A stretch of 43,370 bases of DNA from Balneolales bacterium (GCA_022565805.1 JAIULZ010000017.1:1-43370), one strand, 5' to 3'; counted from the stretch's first letter, positions 22,621 through 29,838 are shown. Notes: generated from the letters alone by a model not told the origin. Made by a program: numbers and translations.

Positions 22621-24774
22621 TTAATAGATAAGCTGAGTAAACCTGGATTTTTTACTTAACTCCTGTGCCTGATTAAGCGTGTAAATGCCATTAGAGGCGA
22701 GGAAGTCAATCAAATATATGAGTGCTTCAGCAGTGGCAACAGCATCTCCAAGAGCAGTATGACGTCCGTCGATTTGAATACCGAATTTTTTGCAAAGTGC
22801 GTCAAGCTTGTGCGAATCAGCGTCTTCATACAAAACGGATGACAGCAACAAAGTATCTAAGATAGGGTGTTTAAACGATAGTGATGTTTTTTTAGAAGCC
22901 ATTTCAAGAAATCGAAGATCAAAAGCAACGTTATGTCCTACAAGTACGCTGTCTTCGCAGTAGCCATGAAAATGAGGCAATATTTCCATAAGACCGGGTT
23001 TATTCTCAAGCATTAAATTTGTAATACCATGTATTTCTATGGATGCATCAGGTACTTTTCTTTCAGGTTTTACCAGCTCATAAAAAGTATCTTCTTTATA
23101 TAATTTGGCATTTACGACCCTTACCGCTCCTATTGATATAATTTCGTCCCCAACAGATGGGTTAAGTCCGGTAGTTTCAAGGTCAAAAACGGTAAGATTA
23201 AGTTCTTTTAGCGTTTTATCACCGAGCTGCTTATTGGTAGTAAATCCTTGTCCTATAAGGTCAAAATCATAATATACCGGACGACTCTCACTTTTTAAAA
23301 GTTGCGCATTTAGATGTTTTCCTTCATCAGCCTTATTAGTTTCAGCTGTATTTGTAGCAGCCGGGAAAATGACGCTAACCCAGGCTTCTGTATCATTCTC
23401 TGATGAAAGTATTTCAGCCTGATGTTGCTCTAATATATAATGAATACTATGTGGATACGGCGAATTATTTAGCAGCGGTTGATTTTGAATAATAGTCTCC
23501 AGGCTAAATTGAGACCCGCTTTTATCCTGATTTAATATTTTTCTGCTAGTGCTAAACCGAAGCGTTAGCAAACGGTCTTCGGCAAATATTGATACGTAAA
23601 GAAGTGTGGAATCTGCTTTTTCTGCAAATCGTCTGATTATATAAACAAGAGAAGAGGTAAGAGCAAACGCGTCCCCTTTAATAAAAGATGCAAGTTCTTT
23701 GCCTTTCAGCTCAAGTGTAACGGGTTGATCACCACTTTTGAGACTTCGTCCAACATCTTCCAGCAGATTGGGGATTAAAATATGCTGCACGGGCCATGCC
23801 GGATGAAACCCTTCCTGAGGTGTATTGCTCGATATGGAAGCTGCTTCTCCAAGCCGAATAGTTTCATCATGAATAACTGAAATAAGCGACTTTTTGACAT
23901 CAGCAGACATTTCATCATATTCGGCAATGGTTTCTGCAGCTGCCCGTATATTAGCAGTTGAAGACCGTGTAATATTTCGCAACTCATTTAAATCCCGGTC
24001 GCGGCGCTCAGCTTTTTCAATTTCACCCGCAATATTTCGTATGATTATCACATAAATATAGCTACCGGGTTCTGAGTCTGGATTTGTTAAGATAAGATGA
24101 ACAGAAATTGGATTCCCATTGGGCGCATAGTGAAGACCGCTTATCGTTTTAGTATGATGTTTTCCATTTCTTGTATCAAGTAGTTTGCCAGAGAGATAAC
24201 TTGTAAAGTCTTTGTCTAAAACAGCATTTAAGTGTCTCCCCAAACTAATTTTAGTGCGTCTCTCAACGTATTTTAAAATAGATGCCGCTTTAGGATTGAA
24301 TAAAGTAATTCGGAAAGAGCTGTTGCAGAGTAAAACTCCCGACTGTAATTCTGAAATAAGGCTGGTAAGTGTCTCTTTATCCATCTCCGCCTTTTTACGC
24401 GAGTCTTGCGCCAGCATCTCGCTATCCTTTGAAAGTTTGGTATAAGACTTTAGCAAAAATGATGCGGATTTTCCAAGCTTTCGCGTAAAAAAACTGTCAA
24501 GGCCGCTAATTTCAGGGTTAGATTTAAATGCATCAAGAGCATCTGCAAGACGGTTAAGAGGTTGAAACACAGACGTAAACAACCAGTACAAAAAAGCGGT
24601 AAAGCAGGTAGCCAGAAAGCCGAATGAAATTAAAATATAAAACCCAAAATCTTGAACGAAAGAAGTTTCGAAGCCATGGTTTACAAGCAAGGCCGAAAGT
24701 AGCAGACCCAGCAAAATTACCGCAAGTCCGCCGACTGAAAGTAAAAAAAAAGATTTTAGTTCTTTAGTGTTCAA
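22621..24774 (-). CDS. Membrane PAS protein with degenerate kinase region fused to a DEDDh 3'-5' exonuclease
   Basis: A 717-residue fusion. Two membrane helices (about 11-32 and 45-70), a HAMP-like linker, a PAS-like domain (about 130-250, LQSGVLLCNSSFRITLFNPKA), then a region resembling a histidine-kinase dimerisation and ATPase domain (about 265-470). The H-box equivalent reads NITRSSTANIRAAAETI with no His, and the usual N and G boxes are not recognisable, so it should not autophosphorylate. From residue 525 is a DnaQ-like exonuclease with all five expected residues: Asp531, Glu533, Asp619, His672, Asp677. It starts with TTG inside the last 11 nt of the receiver gene and shares an operon with the symporter-kinase. 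PolC/DnaQ epsilon-type annotation would be misleading; a signalling or RNA/DNA-turnover role is inferred. Confidence 0.88.
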   Translation of the reverse strand: MNTKELKSFFLLSVGGLAVILLGLLLSALLVNHGFETSFVQDFGFYILISFGFLATCFTAFLYWLFTSVFQPLNRLADALDAFKSNPEISGLDSFFTRKLGKSASFLLKSYTKLSKDSEMLAQDSRKKAEMDKETLTSLISELQSGVLLCNSSFRITLFNPKAASILKYVERRTKISLGRHLNAVLDKDFTSYLSGKLLDTRNGKHHTKTISGLHYAPNGNPISVHLILTNPDSEPGSYIYVIIIRNIAGEIEKAERRDRDLNELRNITRSSTANIRAAAETIAEYDEMSADVKKSLISVIHDETIRLGEAASISSNTPQEGFHPAWPVQHILIPNLLEDVGRSLKSGDQPVTLELKGKELASFIKGDAFALTSSLVYIIRRFAEKADSTLLYVSIFAEDRLLTLRFSTSRKILNQDKSGSQFSLETIIQNQPLLNNSPYPHSIHYILEQHQAEILSSENDTEAWVSVIFPAATNTAETNKADEGKHLNAQLLKSESRPVYYDFDLIGQGFTTNKQLGDKTLKELNLTVFDLETTGLNPSVGDEIISIGAVRVVNAKLYKEDTFYELVKPERKVPDASIEIHGITNLMLENKPGLMEILPHFHGYCEDSVLVGHNVAFDLRFLEMASKKTSLSFKHPILDTLLLSSVLYEDADSHKLDALCKKFGIQIDGRHTALGDAVATAEALIYLIDFLASNGIYTLNQAQELSKKSRFTQLIY

Positions 24775-25138
24775 TGCTTAGTAAAGATTTAATTAGTTTA
24801 ATAAGCTCTCTTGTAGAAAAAGGTTTTGTTATATATGCATCAGCTCCAAGATCAGTACCTTTTTTAATATCCTGCTCTCTTCCTCTTGCAGTAAGCATTA
24901 CGACTTTAGGTTGATCGCTAGTGGCTTTTTTTCTAATGTGCTGCAAAACATCAAAGCCCGATTTGCCGGGCATCATAACGTCAAGCAGAATTAAATCTGT
25001 TGCATTAGAATCAATGAAATCTATAGCCTGCTCACCATTTCTTGAGACATAAGGCTTAAAGCCGTGTTGAGCAAGCAAGAACTCAAGAGAAATAACAATA
25101 TTCGGCTCGTCATCAACTATCAATATTGTGGCAGCCAT
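24764..25138 (-). CDS. Stand-alone response regulator receiver protein
   Basis: A 124-residue REC domain and nothing else. The acidic pair Asp9-Asp10, the phospho-acceptor Asp53 (LILLDVMMPGKSG), the switch Thr in VVMLTARG and the Lys in YITKPF are all present, so it should accept phosphate. With no output domain it may act by protein contact or as a phosphate shuttle. It lies 122 nt after the symporter-kinase gene and its last 11 nt overlap the exonuclease fusion gene, which suggests that the kinase phosphorylates it and that the PAS-exonuclease is a partner. Confidence 0.93.
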   Translation of the reverse strand: MAATILIVDDEPNIVISLEFLLAQHGFKPYVSRNGEQAIDFIDSNATDLILLDVMMPGKSGFDVLQHIRKKATSDQPKVVMLTARGREQDIKKGTDLGADAYITKPFSTRELIKLIKSLLSIEH

Positions 25139-25260
25139 AATGAAGAAACAGTTTTGGGTTAAGCCGGGCTGGATAAAAGCATTCTCATTTGCCGGCAGAA
25201 AAGACTGATATGGAGATTAGCTTAAAATAAGCTATTTGTTTGTATCAATTTTATTGAAGG

Positions 25261-28002
25261 TTATGAAATATCTTTTAAAATAGGTAGATGCATTTTAAAG
25301 CAAGCCCCTCCAAGGTGCGAATCTCCTGCCGTAACTAAGCCTTTATGATCCTCGGCTATGGCTTTTACAACAGCCAGCCCAATACCTGAGCCGCTTACAC
25401 CCGATTCTACCGCAAATTTGCCTCTTGAAAACTTCTTAAAAACAAGTTCTCTTTCCTCTTCTGCCAAGCCCTCGCCATTGTCATGAATGGCTATACATAC
25501 CATATTTTGATCGATGCAGAGGTGAAGTAAAATCCGGGGATTTTCTTTATTTGCAAACTTTGTAGCATTTGATAATAAATTGAGAACAGCCTGTTCAAGA
25601 AAGTCATTATCTGCCAGTATTTTAGTGTTTCTATCCACATCGAGCTGTAGCTCGAAATTATTCTTTTCATGGATAAGGCCGTGCGCAGCCTGCAGAGTTT
25701 TATCGATAAAATCAAAGATATATAATGCTTGTTTATTTTTCGAAGTAAAGCCTTGTTCAAATTTTTGAAGCTCTAATATCTGAGTGATTAATCTCGAAAG
25801 TCGGTCTGTTTCTGATGTAATTATACCAAGAAAATGATTTTTCTTTTCGGGATCCATTTCCGGGTGATCTTTAATTAATTCAGAAAAAGCCCGAATAGAT
25901 GTAAGAGGAGTTTTTAATTCGTGTGTTACGGTGTACATAAACTCATCCTTGAGTAAATCCAGTTCTTTAAGTTTTTCATTGGCAACCGTGAGCCTGTCAG
26001 TTGTTTTATTAAGCTCGGCTGTTTTAGATTCAAGTGCACGGCTATATTCCAGGGCCTGTCTGGTTTCATCAAGTAAAACCATCACATTTTCCAAATGTAT
26101 GGGACGTTCGCTTACAGCCGATGATACTATTTCACGGGCAGATGCTGCGCCAATAATTCCGCCTAAAACAGACTCTGCGTACTGTATAAAAGCTTCATTA
26201 GCCTCGTTAGAATCTTTTTGGAGGGTGCTATCATGGCCTAAATTAAAATCTGATAATGCTTTTTGCGTTTTCTGTTCTCCCAGAAATCGGGTCAAAATTT
26301 GGAGCAACTCATCCTTAGCAGCAGTTCTGTAATCCATTGTAAGGCCTTGGCCGCTGTTGCCTGTCTCAATATCAATGCTTGTAAAAAGCTCTGCCTGAGC
26401 GATTTCCGGAATTTTCGGTTTTCGAATAATTGATATAAACGCAAATATGAAACTGTTGATGCTCAAACTCCAAAAAACAGAGTGAGAAACGGGATCAAGA
26501 CTATTTAATCCAAATAAGGCATGTGGATTAAGCCACCAAATTCCGGCTGGTCCATAATCTAAGGCCGTTGTTGCGAATATGCCCGAAAGTTCAAAAGTTG
26601 GCCAGACAAGCGTGTAGAACCAGATGAGACTTCCTGAAATAATACCAGCAAAAGCACCTGTTTCTGATACTTTTTTAAAGAACATGCCGCCAAAAATGGC
26701 CGGAGCAAACTGTGCTACTGCTGCAAAAGATATCAGGCCGATAGATACAAGAGAATATTCCTGATTTATAAAGCTAATAAAGAAATAAGAGGCTAAGAGC
26801 ACAAGAACTACGCTTAGTCTCTTTATAAATAATAGCTGTGATTGTATGCTTTCATCCGGAAGATTTTGTGATTTAGGAGATTTCCATTTAAGCAGGGCTG
26901 GTACAAATAAATCATTGCTTAGCATGGTGCTAATTGCCACTACCGCAACAATTACCATGCTTGTTGCAGCAGAAATTCCGCCTATAAAGACCAGCATAGC
27001 CACAGCTGGCATATCATGCATTAAAGGTATGGTAATCACAAAAGTATCGGCATCTACTGTACCAGCTGGAAATAAAATTAACCCTGCTAAAGCAATTGGA
27101 ATAACAAATAAATTGATTAAAAGCAGGTAAAGTGGAAACAGCCAAACAGCGGTATCGACATGACGCACAGAAATATTTTCAATTACGGCAACCTGAAACT
27201 GCCTTGGGAGCAGTAAAATAGCAAACATAGAAATGAGGGTTAGCCAAAACCATTCGCTATAGGTGATTGTGGCCTCGCCAAATGTAAACAAACCGTCTGT
27301 TATACCTTTTTCTGCGGCTTGGGAAAATAAATCTATAGGACCGTTAAAGATGAACCAAACGATGCTAATACCGGCTACCAGAAAAGCCACCAGCTTTACA
27401 ACAGACTCGAAAGCAACTGCGGCAACTAAGCCCTCGTGTCTTTTAGAAGAATCCAGATGGCGGGCACCAAATAAAATACCGAAGAGAATCATAGCTATGG
27501 TAGTATAGAAGGCTGTATCCGAGAAAAGCCCTCCGTGCTCTGCCATGGCCGTTTCTGTAGAAACAAGAACATGAAAAGAACCCGATACCGCCTTGAGTTG
27601 TAAACCTATGTATGGAATTATCCCAACCACGCACACCACACTCACAAGTTTAGCTAGTCGACTACTCTTTCCATATCTGGATGCTACAAAATCTGAAATA
27701 GTGGTAATTCGCTGGTTTCTGGAAATAGAAATCATTCTCTTTAGAATAACAACCCATAGAAGCGCCATGAGCGTAGGGCCTATATAAATAGGCAAAAAAC
27801 CAATTCCACTACTTGCCGCTCTGCCAACACTTCCATAGAATGTCCAGGCAGTACAGTATACACCTAGCGAGAGAGCGTAAACAAATGGCAATTTTAAAAA
27901 GCGATCTAACCCCAGCTTTTTATTATCAACCAAATAAGCTATCGTAAAAAGCAGCAGGAAATAGACAGCAGAAACAAGTATAACTAGCCAGGGTTGTAGC
28001 AT
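25261..28002 (-). CDS. Na+/solute symporter-histidine kinase (CbrA/CrbS-like)
   Basis: A 913-residue sensor whose first 520 or so residues are a sodium:solute symporter (SSF) domain with about 13 membrane helices (starting WLVILVSAVYFLLLFTIAYLV). A STAC-like linker follows (about 565-650, ELLQILTRFLGEQKTQKAL), then a coiled coil, and a kinase: H-box DEFMYTVTHELKTPL with His694, N-box Asn812, DNGEG at 841-845 and GSGIGL. In CbrA/CrbS proteins this layout senses or imports small carbon or nitrogen compounds (histidine, acetate); the ligand here is unknown. It is second in a minus-strand group: small membrane protein, this gene, receiver, exonuclease fusion. Confidence 0.93.
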   Translation of the reverse strand: MLQPWLVILVSAVYFLLLFTIAYLVDNKKLGLDRFLKLPFVYALSLGVYCTAWTFYGSVGRAASSGIGFLPIYIGPTLMALLWVVILKRMISISRNQRITTISDFVASRYGKSSRLAKLVSVVCVVGIIPYIGLQLKAVSGSFHVLVSTETAMAEHGGLFSDTAFYTTIAMILFGILFGARHLDSSKRHEGLVAAVAFESVVKLVAFLVAGISIVWFIFNGPIDLFSQAAEKGITDGLFTFGEATITYSEWFWLTLISMFAILLLPRQFQVAVIENISVRHVDTAVWLFPLYLLLINLFVIPIALAGLILFPAGTVDADTFVITIPLMHDMPAVAMLVFIGGISAATSMVIVAVVAISTMLSNDLFVPALLKWKSPKSQNLPDESIQSQLLFIKRLSVVLVLLASYFFISFINQEYSLVSIGLISFAAVAQFAPAIFGGMFFKKVSETGAFAGIISGSLIWFYTLVWPTFELSGIFATTALDYGPAGIWWLNPHALFGLNSLDPVSHSVFWSLSINSFIFAFISIIRKPKIPEIAQAELFTSIDIETGNSGQGLTMDYRTAAKDELLQILTRFLGEQKTQKALSDFNLGHDSTLQKDSNEANEAFIQYAESVLGGIIGAASAREIVSSAVSERPIHLENVMVLLDETRQALEYSRALESKTAELNKTTDRLTVANEKLKELDLLKDEFMYTVTHELKTPLTSIRAFSELIKDHPEMDPEKKNHFLGIITSETDRLSRLITQILELQKFEQGFTSKNKQALYIFDFIDKTLQAAHGLIHEKNNFELQLDVDRNTKILADNDFLEQAVLNLLSNATKFANKENPRILLHLCIDQNMVCIAIHDNGEGLAEEERELVFKKFSRGKFAVESGVSGSGIGLAVVKAIAEDHKGLVTAGDSHLGGACFKMHLPILKDIS

Positions 28003-28072
28003 ATTTATTATTTCATATAAACCTATAGACGGGTAAATGCCCGGTTTTAAAAGCCTTTTAAATTAAGCTTCG

Positions 28073-28273
28073 TTAGCTGTAGTTTTCGTTTTTTTGTCTT
28101 TGACCCGAGATTAACGCTGAAGCGATTATTACTAAAATCCAGCAAATAAATAAGTAAAATGGCAGACTTAAGCTATGATCTGCAACATTATCATCTTTAA
28201 AAACATGCAGTAAGGGAGACAGAAGCAAAAATCCTGAAACAAAGAACAGTAAAATGAATTGATTTGTTTTCAT
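28073..28273 (-). CDS. Small two-helix membrane protein upstream of the symporter-kinase
   Basis: A 66-residue protein with two predicted helices (about 6-24 and 37-57) joined by a short polar loop, and a charged tail ending GQRQKNENYS. It lies 70 nt upstream of the symporter-kinase in the same direction. Small two-helix proteins (DUF3311-, DUF4212- or DUF485-like) often accompany SSF transporters, and CbrX occupies this place before Pseudomonas CbrA; the PFYLFICWILV segment is reminiscent of DUF3311, but similarity is too short to be sure. It may be an accessory subunit of the symporter domain. Confidence 0.7.
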   Translation of the reverse strand: MKTNQFILLFFVSGFLLLSPLLHVFKDDNVADHSLSLPFYLFICWILVIIASALISGQRQKNENYS

Positions 28274-28632: not shown

Positions 28633-29838
28633 ATGAATTTTAAAATAACTGATAAAGGCATTTTACCTGTTCAGCATCTGAAATTACTAATAGATGCCGG
28701 GCTTATTGGCAGTGACGAGGCTAACCCAATCCAAAGGGATCAGCTGCAGCCAAACTCACTGGATTTACGTCTTGGTAAAACAGCCTACCGGGTAAGATGC
28801 GGTTTTTTACCGGAAAAAGAGACCGTATTACAAAAGGTAAACAGGCTTTGTCAGCATGAATTTTCTATTCAAAATGGTGGGATTCTGGAACCGAATTGTA
28901 CCTACATTATACCATTGCTGGAAACATTAAGGTTGCCTGAGAGTTGTTCCGGTATGTACCGTAACCTGAATTTATTTGGTGAAAGAGGCTCTGAATATAT
29001 AACACTGGAAACTACAGATGTATTTTCAGCAAGAACAAATCCAAAAAGCACCACGGGCAGACTTGATATTTTTACAAGGGTTGTTACAGATTATTCGCGC
29101 CGTTTTGAAGACATAAGCCCTGGTTATTCTGGTCCTCTTTATTTAGAAGTTGTTCCAAAATCGTTTCCCATAAGAGTTCAAACAGGTCAGAGACTTAATC
29201 AATTACGAATTAGACACGGAAATGCTTTGTTGTCTGACGATGATATAAGGGCGCATCATTCGTTGGAACCACTTCTATTAAACAATCTTGGTGATGCTGT
29301 TTTGGCCAAGGAGTTAAAGCTTGATTCAGGGCTTTTTATGAGTGTGAATCTCGAGGGTCGTAGAGATGAGATAATTGGTTACCGTGCAAGAAAAAACAGA
29401 GCTGTAATCGATCTTAGTAAAATTGCTTTCTATAATACCTTCGAATTTTGGGAGCCTATTTATGCCGGGCGAGAAGAGCATTTAATTTTGGAGCCGGAAG
29501 CGTTTTATATCTTTGCTTCTTTGGAAAGATGCCGTATTCCATCAAGTCTTGCTAGTGAAATGGTTCCTTACGATACAGGATCCGGAGAGCTTCGAACGCA
29601 TTATGCCGGATTTTTTGATAGTGGCTTTGGTTTCTCTAACGAAGGCAAAGGAGCAAGAGCTGTGCTAGAAGTAAGGTCTCACGATGTTCCTTTTTTAGTT
29701 GAACATGGGCAGACATTTTTCAGTATGGTCTTTGAGAAAAATACAGAGTCGCCAGAAATGCTTTACGGTTCTTCTGTTAAGAGTAACTATCAAGGCCAAA
29801 GTTTAAAGCTAAGTAAACACTTCAAGGAGGGAACTTAA
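28633..29838 (+). CDS. Two-domain 2'-deoxycytidine 5'-triphosphate deaminase
   Basis: A 401-residue enzyme of the long dCTP deaminase family (DCD, PF06559 type), about twice the size of E. coli Dcd. The N-terminal half has KGILPVQHLKLLIDAGLI, QLQPNSLDLRLG, and the dUTPase-fold motif STTGRLDIFTRV; the C-terminal half repeats elements of the same fold (SGLFMSVNLEGR, TGSGELRTHYAGFFDSGFG). The reaction converts dCTP to dUTP on the way to dTTP. It stands alone, divergent from the symporter-kinase group. No Shine-Dalgarno is seen. A physical link to the neighbouring exonuclease fusion is speculative. Confidence 0.85.
   Translation: MNFKITDKGILPVQHLKLLIDAGLIGSDEANPIQRDQLQPNSLDLRLGKTAYRVRCGFLPEKETVLQKVNRLCQHEFSIQNGGILEPNCTYIIPLLETLRLPESCSGMYRNLNLFGERGSEYITLETTDVFSARTNPKSTTGRLDIFTRVVTDYSRRFEDISPGYSGPLYLEVVPKSFPIRVQTGQRLNQLRIRHGNALLSDDDIRAHHSLEPLLLNNLGDAVLAKELKLDSGLFMSVNLEGRRDEIIGYRARKNRAVIDLSKIAFYNTFEFWEPIYAGREEHLILEPEAFYIFASLERCRIPSSLASEMVPYDTGSGELRTHYAGFFDSGFGFSNEGKGARAVLEVRSHDVPFLVEHGQTFFSMVFEKNTESPEMLYGSSVKSNYQGQSLKLSKHFKEGT

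Follow-up and report, generated by a model that had tools for sequence, protein, structure and literature searches.

An SLC5-type sensor kinase, a lone receiver and a predicted pseudokinase-exonuclease encoded together in a Balneolales bacterium

Gene arrangement of the locus

Four genes on one strand of a contig from a Balneolales bacterium (GCA_022565805.1 JAIULZ010000017.1:1-43370) encode a small membrane peptide, a symporter-type sensor kinase, a lone receiver and a membrane protein in which a predicted pseudokinase is fused to an exonuclease. The window, i.e. the whole stretch of DNA analysed (43,370 nucleotides (nt)), corresponds to contig C17 in a draft genome of 4.47 Mb; its family is shared with a Balneolia MAG (locus L090, on the contig also labelled G196), which assigns the window to Balneolota. 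The genes are listed below with the evidence for each; aa denotes amino acids, ORF an open reading frame and E an expect value.

28073-28273, minus strand: two-helix membrane peptide, 66 aa, CbrX-like in position and size (ORF; a homologous small ORF lies directly upstream of the kinase in 79 of the 80 loci surveyed below)
25261-28002, minus strand: SLC5/SSF-type sensor histidine kinase, 913 aa (Pfam; CbrA structure match; motifs invariant in 13 homologs)
24764-25138, minus strand: stand-alone receiver, 124 aa, phospho-acceptor D53 at 24980-24982, no output domain (PF00072, E=1.8e-28)
22621-24774, minus strand: predicted membrane pseudokinase-exonuclease, 717 aa, TTG start (ORF, Pfam, alignment, AlphaFold2)
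24764-24774, minus strand: overlap of the receiver and nuclease genes, 11 nt (also in relatives)

A sequence-only reading of this DNA had described four genes in one direction, an exonuclease gene starting inside the receiver gene, and intact phospho-acceptors at kinase His694 and receiver Asp53. All four genes are present as described, and both residues were confirmed by alignment of relatives. The receiver gene contains the first 11 bases of the nuclease gene, and the identical overlap was found in relatives G002, G031, G134, G168 and G176; G035 likewise has an 11-nt overlap, provided that an internal ATG is taken as the start. Between the kinase gene and the downstream receiver gene there is a gap of 122 bases. 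Because the four-gene order recurs across phyla, it is far beyond chance.

The SLC5 kinase and its small peptide

Three domains of the kinase could be placed as follows.

26563-28002, minus strand: SLC5 symporter domain, residues 1-480, CbrA-like, K203 aligning with CbrA K196 (10ed_A match; K203 invariant)
25750-25950, minus strand: HisKA/DHp domain, phospho-acceptor H694 encoded by CAC at 25921-25923 (PF00512, E=1.2e-16; H694 invariant)
25279-25611, minus strand: HATPase_c domain, N and G boxes intact (PF02518, E=5e-20; N808, N812, D841, G843, G845, G871, G873 and G875 invariant)

Pfam matches in the kinase covered HisKA (residues 685-751) and HATPase_c (798-908), and K203, H694 and all N and G boxes were invariant when the 13 kinase homologs were aligned. 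Residues 7-476 matched the solved structure of Pseudomonas CbrA (10ed_A, E about 2e-64). A search of the whole genome with the Pfam SSF model (PF00474) did not match the window kinase; because the solved CbrA structure does match, this is attributed to the sensitivity of the model and not to absence of an SSF fold. The earlier assignment as an SSF-type kinase is thus borne out by the CbrA structure but not by the Pfam model. The 10ed alignment ends at residue 476-482, ahead of the STAC part of 10ed, and the kinase linker had no Pfam match. The protein ends after HATPase_c, with the receiver encoded by a separate gene, i.e. it is not a hybrid kinase with a C-terminal receiver.

The closest known counterpart of this part of the locus is in Pseudomonas, where CbrX, a 58-aa protein of two helices, is translationally coupled to CbrA and is bound by the SLC5 domain of CbrA in the structure (PMC6591292, PMC13022988). 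The 66-aa peptide of the window corresponds to CbrX in place, size and topology. As in the CbrX-CbrA/CbrB system, a two-helix peptide lies upstream of an SLC5 kinase, and the SLC5 domains are homologous over 470 residues, with K203 equivalent to K196. K196 of CbrA occupies the Na2 site and probably serves there to link transport with protons (PMC13022988). The two systems differ in output: CbrA signals to CbrB, a separate, transcription-activating response regulator, whereas the window module continues with a lone receiver and then the pseudokinase-nuclease. The two SLC5 domains are also far apart in sequence, and a histidine ligand is not implied for the window kinase.

A degenerate sensor kinase fused to a DEDDh exonuclease

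For the 717-aa protein, a combination of profile comparison and structure prediction gave the following domains.

24355-24774, minus strand: two transmembrane helices and a HAMP-like/coiled-coil helix, residues 1-140 (AlphaFold2 helices 3-32, 37-82 and 95-141; 4i5s_A alignment from profile position 44)
24031-24342, minus strand: PAS domain, residues 145-248 (PF13426, E=5e-4, weak; WalK PAS structures 4mn5/7duc)
23824-24030, minus strand: predicted pseudo-DHp two-helix hairpin, residues 249-317, N267 in place of the catalytic His and R270 as the +3 docking Arg (hhalign to the live-kinase DHp; pLDDT about 95)
23362-23787, minus strand: degenerate CA (ATPase-like) domain, residues 330-471, G boxes lost (alignments, AlphaFold2)
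22624-23232, minus strand: DEDDh 3'-5' exonuclease domain, residues 515-717 (RNase_T, E=7e-39; 2ido fold match; catalytic residues invariant)

Positions 44-470 of a profile of the nuclease family matched 4i5s, a VicK/CovS-type kinase (E=5e-17), and the C-terminus of the profile matched PolC/DnaQ exonucleases (E=7.5e-51). The AlphaFold2 model (mean pLDDT 82, pTM 0.59) contains two transmembrane helices, a PAS domain, a DHp hairpin, a CA-like domain and an exonuclease; WalK was the top Foldseek match, and the exonuclease part fits Pol III epsilon (2ido) with a target-normalised TM of 0.86 and an rmsd of 2.0. Alignment of the pseudokinase with the DHp-CA region of the live kinase by hhalign gave E=1.4e-14. 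These alignments and the model indicate that the first 480 residues correspond to an entire WalK-like sensor kinase (HAMP/PAS/DHp/CA), degenerate and predicted to be kinase-dead. The protein had been described from the sequence as a membrane PAS protein with a complete DEDDh exonuclease; the exonuclease is indeed complete, but the Pfam evidence for PAS is weak and the degenerate kinase as a whole had been missed. No named NCBIfam family was found above cut-off for the nuclease except a generic DnaQ subfamily domain.

In none of 54 aligned sequences is the phospho-acceptor His present, its place being taken by Glu (30), Asp (7), Arg (6), Ala (3) and others, with Asn (N267) in the window; the Glu that should follow is mostly Gly in this family. 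Arg at +3 is kept in 49/54 (R270 in the window), and the DEDDh residues D531, E533, D619, H672 and D677 are invariant in all 54 save one end gap. Loss of the His together with retention of the Arg and of the nuclease residues argues that selection has preserved a docking surface and the nuclease, even as the ability to act as a kinase disappeared. Relay by the pseudokinase is impossible because the His is absent; it is instead a likely contact point for the receiver, i.e. a probable docking arm, on the strength of the residues retained and of a parallel in Caulobacter. DivL is likewise a PAS-bearing membrane pseudokinase that has lost the His and kept the +3 Arg, and it reads a phosphorylated single-domain receiver, DivK. 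The equivalent of this Arg, R553, is needed for DivK binding even though Tyr replaces the His (PMC4211667). DivL acts on the kinase CckA, whereas the window pseudokinase is fused to an exonuclease; the His is replaced by Tyr in DivL and mostly by Glu here, and the comparison is not meant to imply common descent of the two pathways. The exonuclease itself shares catalytic residues and fold with DnaQ/PolC-type DEDDh enzymes (Pol III epsilon, 2ido; Thermotoga maritima PolC exonuclease, 2p1j), but is fused behind a membrane pseudokinase and has no polymerase partner.

In the receiver, D10, D53 and K105 are kept in 70/70 receiver relatives, and helix 1 (PNIV.SLE.L) is mostly at least 80% conserved across phyla. 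Helix 1 of receivers is the face that docks on DHp domains.

Distribution and co-occurrence

Whether the genes form one module, as had been proposed from the sequence, was examined by their co-occurrence, which proved to be conserved. Full-length nuclease was found in 14 of 196 genomes of the class; 13 of these 14 also had the SSF-kinase, against 11 of the 182 others. Across phyla, a scan of species genomes with the 717-aa protein as query gave no matches, and 84,980 species genomes were scanned instead with aligned symporter parts as query. The best 80 kinase loci, some of them cut by contig ends, were taken forward; they span alpha-, beta- and gammaproteobacteria, desulfobacteria, Chloroflexota, Nitrospirota, Calditrichota and Bacteroidota. 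The small gene was present in 79/80, the receiver in 69/80 (45/47 where at least 4 kb was available on each side) and the full-length nuclease in 43/80 (32/47 with the same flanks). In most loci the receiver and pseudokinase-nuclease genes are adjacent or overlapping. Examples are Paracoccus denitrificans PD1222 (PDEN_RS25395-RS25415), with the order DUF294-small-kinase-receiver-nuclease, and Cupriavidus necator C39, with symporter-small-kinase-receiver-nuclease-DUF294-ACS, where ACS is acetyl-CoA synthetase. Two further loci, L103 (34-534 and 3687-4055) and L156, have two receivers around the SLC5 kinase.

The receiver and pseudokinase as a pair

At several loci a stand-alone PAS-pseudokinase of an unnamed family, here called X, lacks the phospho-acceptor His and directly follows the receiver (L081 14939-15889, L084 4091-5038, L097 5162-6217 and L101 8337-9365). 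In Desulfobacterota (L097, L101) and in families f7/f12, the gene after the receiver is X, with a separate exonuclease gene close by. An active kinase or a DNA-binding output was considered for X (about 316 aa in f7/f12) and rejected, as Pfam detected essentially PAS only and the aligned DHp has no His. Because X can stand alone in this position, the receiver and the pseudokinase can be regarded as the constant pair, to which the nuclease is joined by fusion with the pseudokinase.

Sequence divergence points the same way. Over 42 loci, with the SLC5 domain controlled for, receiver distances had a partial r of 0.71 with the pseudokinase and 0.40 with the live kinase; the excess over the exonuclease domain (0.57) was borderline by bootstrap. 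G031, G134 and G168 have a receiver-nuclease pair that is not linked to the kinase but still shows the 11-nt overlap.

The stand-alone exonucleases of acetate-type loci (L097 9256-9981, L101 12335-13039 and L127 683-1375) were also considered as plain unfused orthologs of the fused nuclease. This was rejected, since a tree, which has long branches and does not include Pseudomonas putida PP_0353, places them outside the fused-nuclease group. The placement suggests that DEDDh exonucleases were recruited to acetate-type loci more than once.

The acetate and DUF294 setting

ACS, an SSF symporter or DUF294 was found near the kinase in 55/80 loci, DUF294 being the commonest further neighbour (40/80). 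In f7/f12 a kinase-receiver-X operon is followed by ACS. Among relatives of the window the kinase adjoins a RamB-like regulator; in G031 (L071 2960-10594) and G134 (L073) the cluster comprises the SLC5 kinase, the RamB-like HTH-IrrE regulator (helix-turn-helix, HTH), malate synthase and isocitrate lyase (aceB and aceA in L071). Next to the receiver-small gene-kinase set of Kiloniella (L149, L157) lies a similar-looking protein of 510 aa. The receiver-nuclease pair of the window relatives adjoins DUF294 or a symporter, with ACS in L072. DUF294 can also stand directly after the receiver, in the usual place of the pseudokinase-nuclease (L155 13147-14640, L103 4073-5566). In the window genome itself, genes for an outer-membrane protein, a symporter, ACS and DUF294 lie together on contig C126, with DUF294 unlinked from the module.

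This neighbourhood matches the MxtR/ErdR (CrbS/CrbR) regulon of Pseudomonas, in which an SLC5 kinase, acs, an actP-type symporter, a CBS/DUF294-type protein and a DEDDh exonuclease likewise share one regulon or locus. In P. putida, ErdR binds the promoter of an operon made up of the genes for the CBS protein PP_0354 and the RNase_T exonuclease PP_0353; normal growth on pyruvate requires PP_0353, and a PP_0354 deletion left growth on acetate, succinate and pyruvate without a phenotype (PMC9927547). A link between DnaQ-like nucleases and SSF/acetate loci, which the sequence-only reading had mentioned, is therefore confirmed. The kinases differ, CrbS being a hybrid with a LuxR-type partner and the window kinase non-hybrid. 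No LuxR-type response regulator was found in the module or the flanking genes examined, the rest of the genome not having been searched.

Outside the module, the divergent neighbour at 28633-29838 encodes a 401-aa protein with DCD_N and DCD_C, the N- and C-terminal dCTP deaminase domains. In G002 a similar-sized protein lies at the matching position (L070 15362-16570); this comparison covers the protein start only.

Proposed pathway and its alternatives

A pathway is proposed in which the SLC5 kinase and the CbrX-like peptide would sense a nutrient, acetate or a similar monocarboxylate being the most likely one, with either the ligand or its transport as the signal. The kinase would autophosphorylate on H694 and pass the phosphate to D53 of the receiver, which, not being DNA-binding, would dock on the dead DHp/CA core as DivK~P does on DivL. 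Docking would switch the activity of the membrane-tethered DEDDh exonuclease, and the PAS domain may supply a second, cytoplasmic input. As output, 3' ends of nucleic acids would be turned over, most probably those in RNA of carbon-assimilation genes. We hold it somewhat probable that the four genes make up this single pathway, from kinase through phosphorylated receiver and pseudokinase docking to exonuclease control in acetate or monocarboxylate metabolism. For the kinase and receiver steps, intact residues and established two-component knowledge make phosphotransfer the expected reaction. Docking on the pseudo-DHp is suggested by the DivL parallel, by conservation and by co-divergence; control of the nuclease by the receiver, the RNA substrate and the ligand are presumed.

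Several observations weigh against this pathway. No full-length nuclease lies near 37 of the 80 kinase loci, some of which are cut by contig ends. When 20 genomes with nuclease-less loci were searched whole, 3 held the fused nuclease elsewhere, 2 held X and a separate exonuclease, and most others (e.g. Kiloniella) had neither, so that the receiver must act otherwise there. In f7/f12 the nuclease has no DHp, which is carried by X; in most other nuclease loci pseudokinase and exonuclease are fused in one protein, which argues for a joint function. Inheritance of adjacent genes as a unit could explain part of the co-divergence. Finally, 10 betaproteobacterial loci have an orphan OmpR-type DNA-binding regulator near the kinase and receiver, and 7 of the 10 have no nuclease. 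These regulators are mutually homologous (L098 13195-13917, L108 9032-9703, L115 15649-16362, L121 9030-9701, L123, L131, L141, L142, L151 and, at a contig edge, L106). TctDE pairs were considered for them and rejected, as there is no second kinase in those loci. Transcriptional output is likely at these betaproteobacterial loci. The earlier description of an operon with no transcription factor holds for the window module, where no DNA-binding regulator was found (distant regulators of the window genome were not searched), and roughly 70 of the 80 loci have no OmpR-type orphan; a transcriptional output nevertheless remains conceivable for the window too.

The strongest alternative, which we judge unlikely although deserving of serious weight, is that the nuclease is a separate, co-regulated gene of the acetate locus. 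CrbS and RpuS are hybrids with fused receivers and LuxR-type partners (PMC9100948), the P. putida exonuclease sits behind an ErdR-bound promoter, and both the OmpR-type orphans and the many loci with kinase and receiver but no nuclease fit such an arrangement. Set against it are the rarity of those orphans, the lack of a DNA-binding regulator in the window module, and the adjacency or overlap of receiver and pseudokinase-nuclease in most loci. Moreover, a pseudokinase without His cannot relay, and loss of the His with the docking Arg kept would need another explanation.

Signalling might also run in reverse, with the PAS/pseudokinase tuning signalling by binding to the live kinase or the receiver, either in the role of an anti-kinase or by forming a heterodimer, while the exonuclease answers to PAS and not to the receiver. 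Heterodimers are conceivable, as the pseudo-DHp resembles the live DHp, including the PDM..R..F hairpin stretch, and stand-alone X exists without nuclease. We consider this improbable: the receiver co-diverges with the pseudokinase more than with the live kinase, and the receiver-nuclease pairs unlinked from the kinase retain their overlap.

Least probable is that the nuclease, gated by the receiver, erases a nucleotide mark written by the DUF294 nucleotidyltransferase on an acetate-metabolism protein or RNA; the frequency of DUF294, its replacement of the nuclease in L155 and L103, its place beside ACS and symporter in the window genome and the precedent of RNase Z as a nuclease that erases AMPylation (PMC12663964) speak for such a scheme, but in the window genome DUF294 lies apart from the module, and in P. 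putida it is the PP_0353 deletion, not that of PP_0354, that affects growth on pyruvate (PMC9927547).

Implications

SLC5 kinases, an acetate-locus exonuclease and receiver-reading pseudokinases are each known individually. Their combination in one widespread module, where a lone receiver precedes a dead sensor kinase with an exonuclease attached, was not found in the open-access literature searched; nor was a DnaQ/PAS/pseudokinase signalling protein, or DUF294 together with exonuclease and kinase. Most two-component systems act through transcription factors, nucleotide cyclases or similar outputs, and the open-access literature searched describes no exonuclease in this role. More broadly, and more tentatively than for the pathway itself, the locus may represent a phylum-spanning two-component class with a nuclease effector, in which a lone receiver is read by a dead kinase fused to a tethered DEDDh exonuclease, so that carbon use would be controlled directly, either post-transcriptionally or through a nucleotide eraser, with no transcription factor involved.

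If the proposed pathway is true, many environmental bacteria, Paracoccus, Cupriavidus, Azospirillum, Thauera and Marinobacter among them, would regulate their use of acetate or pyruvate through a nuclease that is gated by a signal. This would help to explain the exonuclease in the Pseudomonas acetate regulon and its effect on growth on pyruvate, and would add, after DivL, another natural dead histidine kinase that reads a receiver, here with an enzyme attached. The operon of P. denitrificans PD1222 makes the model directly testable. A common signalling route may thus act on nucleic acids instead of transcription.

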